Shown piece after piece: positions 33,495 to 34,799 of a DNA stretch of 41,222 nt. The stretch lies in the NCBI GenBank assembly GCA_017546165.1, contig JAFYXL010000030.1:1-41222 (forward strand). Reading direction: 5' to 3'. Source of the DNA: Clostridia bacterium. Its GTDB lineage: Bacteria; Bacillota; Clostridia; Monoglobales; Monoglobaceae. Position numbers and translations under genes: made by a program. Below the pieces are notes generated by a model, which was not told the origin of the DNA, ran no database searches, and was given only the letters and a program-made list of their open reading frames with translations. The number at the start of each line of letters is the position of its first letter. Within the stretch, counting starts at the first letter, position 1.

Positions 33495-33893
33495 TTACCA
33501 AATAAATGCCAGAACTTCACCGCCAACATTCTGACGACGAGCCTCTTTGTCTGTCATAATTCCTTTTGATGTAGAAATAATAGCTATACCCAAGCCTTTA
33601 AGTACCTGAGGAAGCTCTTCTTTAGAAGCATAAATTCTAAGACCCGGCTTTGACACTCTCTTAAGACCTGTCAATACCTTCTGCTTGTTTTCAGCGTACT
33701 TGAGTGTAACTCTGATAACGCCCTGAGTGTTGTCGTCAATGTATTCTACATTCTTAACATAACCCTCATCAAGCAAAATCTTAGCGATAGCCTTTTTCAT
33801 ATTTGAAGCAGGAATGTCAACAGTTGCGTGTCTCTGATTGTTCGCATTTCTGATTCTTGTCAACATATCTGCTATCGGATCTGTGATGTGCAT
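33495..33893 (-). CDS. rpsH: 30S ribosomal protein S8
   Basis: A 132-residue primary binder of 16S rRNA helix 21 and, in Escherichia coli, the feedback repressor of the spc operon. [20 protein letters not shown] and the C-terminal [20 protein letters not shown] are family signatures. Directly upstream lies a hairpin with the same internal loop as helix 21 (33923-33967), so autoregulation at this gene is likely. Confidence 0.97.
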
Positions 33894-33922
33894 ATTTTAT
33901 CCTCCTTTTTACCGGATTTTGT

Positions 33923-33967
33923 GAGCCAGTTTGGTTATCCGCATCTTTTCAATTAACCACTTGGCTC
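33923..33967 (-). promoter_or_regulatory. Probable S8 autoregulatory site mimicking 16S helix 21
   Basis: Read on the - strand: GAGCCA, AG, TGGTTA, a 16-base loop, TAACCA, AAC, TGGCTC. The two 6-bp helices flank an asymmetric internal loop AG/AAC. In E. coli 16S rRNA the S8 site is GUUA-AG-UCAG opposite CUGA-UAC-UGGC, the same layout, with UGGC identical. It ends about 30 bases before the rpsH start. Confidence 0.75.
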
Positions 33968-34016
33968 TCCTTTTTTAAATAATATTAAAGTTCTTGCAAA
34001 AGAACAGTCTGGTGAT

Positions 34017-34202
34017 TTACCAAGAAGCCTTCTTCACTCCTGGAATCTGACCCTTGTAAGCAAGTTCACGGAAGCAAATTCTGCAGATACCAAACTTGCG
34101 CAAGTATGCGTGAGGTCTGCCGCAGATCTTACATCTGTTGTATTCACGGGTCTTGAACTTCTGTTCTTTCTGCTGTTTTAAAACCATAGCCTTTTTTGCC
34201 AT
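34017..34202 (-). CDS. rpsN: 30S ribosomal protein S14, zinc-binding type Z
   Basis: A 61-residue short S14. Cysteines 24, 27, 40 and 43 (CKIC and CRIC) bind zinc, and [12 protein letters not shown] is the conserved end. The short zinc form is usual in Bacillota. GGAGG precedes the ATG. It sits between rplE and rpsH, with a 123-bp structured spacer after it. Confidence 0.97.
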
Positions 34203-34262
34203 ATGCTTTAATCTCCTCCATTTCTAAAAGATTAAATGGGTAAATCTCTGTTTAAAAACCGA

Positions 34263-34799
34263 TTATCTTGTAAAAGGTGCACCCATCAATGTGAGAAGCT
34301 CACGTGCTTCCTCATCTGTTGGAGCAGTTGTAACAAAGATGATATCCATACCACGAATTTTATCAATCTTATCGTAATCTATTTCAGGGAAAATAAGCTG
34401 TTCCTTAATACCCAATGAATAGTTACCTCTGCCATCGAAGGAATTTGGGTTGATACCTCTGAAGTCACGAACACGTGGGAGTGCTGCGTTGAAAAGTCTG
34501 TCAACGAACTCGTACATCTTTGCGCCTCTCAAGGTAACTTTGCAACCAATGTTCATACCCTCTCTGACTTTAAATGAAGCCACAGATTTCTTAGCCTTTG
34601 TAACAACCGGCTTCTGACCTGTAATCAAAGCGAGGTCGTTCATAGCTGAATCAATAGCCTTTGAATTTTCTTTTGCTTCGCCCAAACCAATGTTGATAAC
34701 AACCTTGTCAAGTTTAGGAATCTGCATAACACTCTTGTATTCGAATTTCTTCATAAGAGCGTCCTTAATTTCTTTTGTATAGCGTTCTTCAAGTCTCAT
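34263..34799 (-). CDS. rplE: 50S ribosomal protein L5
   Basis: A 178-residue 5S rRNA-binding protein. [29 protein letters not shown] and [14 protein letters not shown] are conserved, as is [31 protein letters not shown] precedes the ATG. Order rplX-rplE-rpsN is conserved. Confidence 0.97.

Follow-up and report, generated by a model that had tools for sequence, protein, structure and literature searches.

A conserved hairpin resembling the 16S rRNA S8-binding site precedes rpsH in Monoglobaceae and is most likely an S8 autoregulatory element

In this study, we report an RNA hairpin that carries the S8-binding core of 16S rRNA and lies directly before rpsH, the gene of ribosomal protein S8, in the gut-dwelling clostridial family Monoglobaceae. 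The hairpin is conserved across the sampled family, its helices covary, and it is restricted to this family and one sister family. Judged from its sequence, the leader is most likely a site of S8 autoregulation that acts on rpsH translation. Rfam has no entry for it, and a search of the site against Rfam gave no relevant match at the gathering threshold or at E values up to 5. Regulation of the spc operon in Bacillus subtilis and other species was stated to be unknown in a 2024 review (PMC10931766), and no S8 leader outside the gammaproteobacteria is reported in the literature examined. S8 is not among the new ligands shown from Table 1 (20 new leaders) of Eckert and Weinberg 2020 (PMC7247131), and searches of the main text of two further surveys (PMC8040213, PMC11109978) gave no S8 leader; an unnamed candidate motif may exist elsewhere.

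Location and anatomy of the hairpin

The window, meaning the whole stretch of 41,222 nt that was analysed (contig JAFYXL010000030.1), carries its spc cluster on the minus strand in the order rplN, rplX, rplE, rpsN, a 123-nt spacer, rpsH, rplF, rplR, rpsE, rplO and secY. The hairpin RNA is therefore that of the minus strand, at exactly 33923-33967, and belongs to the mRNA of the operon encoding S8. The sequence-only reading of this region had described two perfect helices in a 123-nt spacer directly before rpsH, all of which was confirmed. A cobalamin riboswitch (50.8 bits) was also detected in the window, at 515-719 of the minus strand. The features of the locus, all on the minus strand, are given below with their basis.

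34017..34202, minus: rpsN, type Z ribosomal protein S14, upstream gene (NF005974)
33894..34016, minus: rpsN-rpsH intergenic spacer, 123 nt (gene coordinates)
33923..33967, minus: S8-binding-site-like hairpin, comprising P1, S8 core, P2 and terminal loop (fold, covariation, descriptor)
33963..33967, minus: P1 5' strand GAGCC, equivalent to 16S 590-594 (partner strand 33923-33927; each P1 pair shows double changes within the family)
33959..33962, minus: core 5' strand A595 A596 G597 U598 (36/36 sequences have A595, G597 and U598; position 596 varies between A and G, with 644 matching in every case)
33954..33958, minus: P2 5' strand GGUUA (599-601 paired in 36/36; both sides changed at 600 and 601)
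33938..33941, minus: CGGA, 3' side of the loop, 5 nt before A640 (same register in 35/35 family sequences)
33933..33937, minus: P2 3' strand UAACC (covariation)
33928..33932, minus: core 3' strand A640 A641 A642 C643 U644 (no change at A640, A642 or C643; A at 641, with U in one genus)
33923..33927, minus: P1 3' strand GGCUC (covariation)
33913..33916, minus: UCCG, complementary to CGGA, its UCC complementary to the Shine-Dalgarno GGA (exact in 32/35)
33901..33905, minus: Shine-Dalgarno GGAGG of rpsH (present in all family spacers)
33495..33893, minus: rpsH, ribosomal protein S8, 132 aa (NCBIfam NF001109, 194.7 bits; PDB matches)

Read from 33967 to 33923, the RNA consists of GAGCC, AAGU and GGUUA, a 16-nt terminal loop with CGGA at its end, and UAACC, AAACU and GGCUC, P1 and P2 both being perfect. 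Downstream of the hairpin follow ACAAAA, UCCG, GUAAAAA, GGAGG, AUAAAAU and the AUG. In the folded spacer the hairpin appeared in both the minimum-energy and the centroid structure, and the spacer folds better than its shuffles (z -2.24).

Match to 16S helix 21 and conservation of the site

The comparison with helix 21 was made against the 16S rRNA of relatives, because a search of the window's own assembly found no 16S gene. In two same-family genomes with a readable 16S, helix 21 and the leader core, CAAGU / AAACUG, are identical in sequence and strand order, whereas P1, P2, the loop and CGGA of the leader are unrelated in sequence to 16S. The internal loop, AG/AAC, had earlier been likened to AG/UAC of helix 21. 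The core match stands, but it is exact to the 16S of the family rather than approximate, the earlier UAC having been given because E. coli has U at 641. The UGGC that had been counted as part of the likeness is incidental; it belongs to P1, and its letters differ among relatives.

Binding by S8 needs an invariant A642, the only conserved base-specific contact, which is stacked on an S-T-S tripeptide, and also the 597-643-641 and 595-(596-644) triples (PMC4176348). The tripeptide is present in the window's S8. A595, G597-C643, U598-A640, an unpaired A642 and a paired 596-644 were found in 36/36 leader sequences. Among these, A642, G597, C643 and A595 are fixed, whereas 641 varies between A and U, and 596-644 between A-U and G-C.

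The site was also evaluated with an S8-core descriptor (P1 of 5 bp with at most one mismatch, A-N-G-U / A-W-A-C-N, Watson-Crick 596-644, P2 of 4 bp), which is matched by chance 0.7 times per 41 kb of shuffled sequence and in 19 of 20,000 spacer shuffles. The match in the spacer is perfect, with 0 mismatches and 0 wobbles, and every other match in the window has a mismatch. A covariance model built from family sequences, the window's own included, scored the site at 82.2 bits, with 14.6 bits for the runner-up elsewhere in the genome, and there is one strong site per genome.

The family sample comprised 38 genomes, including those of Ructibacterium gallinarum, a Monoglobus sp. and Candidatus Roslinia caecavium. 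All 35 with a readable rpsH, from 9 genera, carry the hairpin in the rpsN-rpsH spacer. Lack of a conserved loop among relatives had been named in advance as an outcome that would overturn the proposal; the loop is kept in 35/35 family genomes. Covariation in the same spacer of relatives, also foreseen, is strong. Among 24 distinct sequences, 92.6% of cells pair and both-side changes occur in 11/14 hairpin pairs; the covariation score, which spans the hairpin and four candidate pseudoknot pairs, reaches 0.400, compared with 0.198 +/- 0.016 for shuffles and at most 0.097 with slid partners. Parsimony on the protein tree of 36 genomes counted about 32 double events, in which both sides of a pair changed, and three independent flips of 596-644 between A-U and G-C; 597-643 and 598-640 changed nowhere on this tree. 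The E. coli letter U641 occurs in one genus (L030/L031). The two flanking helices are thus conserved as structure and not as sequence. Mismatches at 594-645 or 593-646, adjoining the core, occur in several sequences and count against the explanation favoured below.

Outside the family, one sister-family genome (L040) carries a simpler version, GAGGC AAGU GGCU...AGUC AAACU GCCUU, without CGGA. In the protein tree, in which one long-branched row (f3) is unplaced, this genome adjoins the window's family, outside the branch uniting the other sampled families. The site was not found in the other families of the order or in the sampled rest of the class Clostridia, either with the covariance model, which favours family-type sites so that a differently built S8 site could escape it, or in the independent check by a descriptor scan of 1.5-2.6 kb upstream of rpsH. 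The rpsN-rpsH spacer is long in the family and mostly 12-90 nt in other Clostridia. Weak covariance-model matches in other Clostridia were rejected as chance: those in L148-L175 fall in coding sequence or at ribosome-binding sites belonging to other ribosomal-protein genes, and the surroundings of the L244 and L246 matches yielded no spc-cluster gene.

In four species of another Clostridia family (f49, L247-L250), a nearly invariant block, ACAAGGTTTTAGGTAAGTCGTATCACC..GGCGTGATAAACAATACCTTAAAAAAGGAGG, was observed about 10-70 nt before rpsH, the remainder of the spacer diverging among the four. The block has AAGU and AAAC in a hairpin context, but 596-644 would be A-A, so that it may be a distorted S8 site or an element of another kind. 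An alternative partner for its CCUU is the Shine-Dalgarno AAGG.

The CGGA/UCCG element

A second conserved element, absent from the sequence-only reading, accompanies the hairpin. CGGA lies exactly 5 nt before A640 in 35/35 sequences despite a loop length of 15-86 nt, and UCCG lies 7 nt before the Shine-Dalgarno, the departures being UCCU in L009/L010 and UCCCG in L019. The distance from P1 to UCCG is 4-7 nt, and 49 nt in L032, where UCCG lies past an insertion. Large, partly self-complementary insertions were seen in several genomes (an 86-nt loop in L030/L031, a 51-nt loop in L035 and an insert after P1 in L032), and these leave the CGGA-A640 distance unchanged. In L016, L017, L018 and L021, GTCCGATAAAAAGGA is tandemly repeated before rpsH, the second copy being GTCCGATAATAAGGAGG, which yields two UCCG copies and a second Shine-Dalgarno-like run.

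The conservation of CGGA and UCCG suggests a pseudoknot or a switch. The pair is almost invariant, with 0 double changes and 3 uncompensated departures, which leaves covariation without bearing on the pairing, and a linker of 4-7 nt leaves little room for a pseudoknot across about 13 bp; both the lack of covariation and the short linker count against the explanation favoured below. RNAalifold offers an alternative in which UCC pairs with the Shine-Dalgarno GGA, and with UCCG blocked the predicted accessibility of the Shine-Dalgarno rises from a mean of 0.23 to 0.42. We consider CGGA/UCCG to be a conserved functional element with a candidate pairing, most simply a switch between the core and the ribosome site. 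A third helix, P3, above CGGA was rejected as a general part of the leader (mean 3.1 bp against 2.8 shuffled), although some genera (L012/L013, L022/L023) show it clearly. Among known leaders, those of S15 have a pseudoknot close to the ribosome-binding site (PMC10931766), as is proposed here, with a different protein and a different core; the pseudoknot proposed for the S8 leader is conserved without covariation support.

Proposed regulation and relation to the E. coli operator

Based on these features, we propose, with a probability of about 0.8, that the hairpin is a helix 21 mimic that binds S8, and that surplus S8 would repress initiation of rpsH translation. By coupling, the downstream genes rplF, rplR, rpsE, rplO and secY would probably follow. 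UCCG may pair with the loop CGGA in a pseudoknot or, through UCC, with the Shine-Dalgarno, and S8 binding would shift the access of the ribosome. A more specific and tentative version is an independently evolved three-way switch, in which pairing of UCCG with CGGA would leave the ribosome site open, pairing with the Shine-Dalgarno would close it, and docking of S8 would decide between the two. Against repression counts the 17-nt gap between the base of the hairpin and the Shine-Dalgarno, at which simple occlusion of the ribosome is not obvious.

S8 might bind and yet act on mRNA stability or processing, by protection or by marking a cleavage point that separates the rpsN half of the spc transcript from the rpsH half. 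The position of the site inside the operon, in a 123-nt spacer, is compatible with such a role, and in E. coli the effect of S8 extends backward to upstream genes as well, by destabilising the mRNA (PMC10931766); the conserved block of UCCG and Shine-Dalgarno, however, points to the ribosome-binding site and is needless for stability alone, and we regard this outcome as improbable. That S8 is not involved, the spacer serving to uncouple rpsH translation from rpsN and the helix 21 likeness being convergence on a stable hairpin, appears very unlikely. The length of the family spacers and their better-than-shuffled folding would suit such an insulator, but it gives no reason to keep A595, G597, U598, A640, A642 and C643 in 36/36 sequences while the helix letters vary, and the internal loop destabilises the hairpin.

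The sign of the control could also be opposite, with S8 binding opening the Shine-Dalgarno, since UCC can pair with its GGA and an S8-stabilised pseudoknot occupying UCCG would, by the predicted gain in accessibility, activate translation. The predicted differences are small, however, positive feedback would be an unstable arrangement for a ribosomal protein, and the known ribosomal-protein leaders are described as repressing in the parts of the literature consulted (PMC7247131, PMC10931766), so that activation is given very little credence. Hardly any weight attaches to a transcription attenuator or promoter element in the spacer: terminators are common among hairpins before genes, but scanning 33800-34300 detected neither a promoter-like nor a terminator-like match within the spacer, the hairpin is followed by an A-rich stretch and not a U run, and the conserved block ends at the Shine-Dalgarno.

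Repression by S8, as preferred here, would give the family leader the same proposed outcome, S8 feedback, as the operator in the E. coli spc operon (structure 1S03), with which it shares the core letters AAGU / AAACU and the operon. The two differ in construction. The E. coli operator lies in the start of rplE, with AAAC before AAGU and a long closing loop on the P1 side, whereas the family leader lies before rpsH, keeps the rRNA order with AAGU first, is closed on the P2 side and has CGGA/UCCG in addition. The strict descriptor misses the E. coli operator owing to a C-C mismatch in P2, and it was therefore relaxed; as a positive control, the relaxed form recovered the operator at +6 of rplE. 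With it, no E. coli-type site at rplE was found above background in the family, and such a site was rejected for Clostridia: only 1/33 family loci had a match within 150 nt of the rplE start, and this one sits in the rplX coding sequence, in line with background. The earlier placement of the site at rpsH instead of rplE is thereby borne out. To call it moved from the E. coli position implies a shared origin, and that part was not upheld, since the reversed strand order makes independent origin likelier. The family leader probably works like the E. coli operator without descending from it, as an independent invention, and the point at which surplus S8 would probably switch off its own synthesis differs from that in E. 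coli. Published ribosomal-protein leaders, as far as the surveys were covered (PMC7247131, PMC8040213, PMC11109978), are likewise cis-acting structured RNAs before a ribosomal-protein gene, and several mimic rRNA.

How the longest ribosomal-protein operon is balanced outside the E. coli group was stated to be unknown (PMC10931766). The leader described here is a lineage-wide candidate for balancing spc outside that group. Both its protein and its RNA are defined, and the natural variants include the one U641 genus and the independent changes of 596-644 between A-U and G-C. If S8 binds, one and the same protein-RNA contact would have been taken up on at least two occasions, with opposite strand orders and before different genes, and the leader would offer a clean case for how regulatory rRNA mimics arise.
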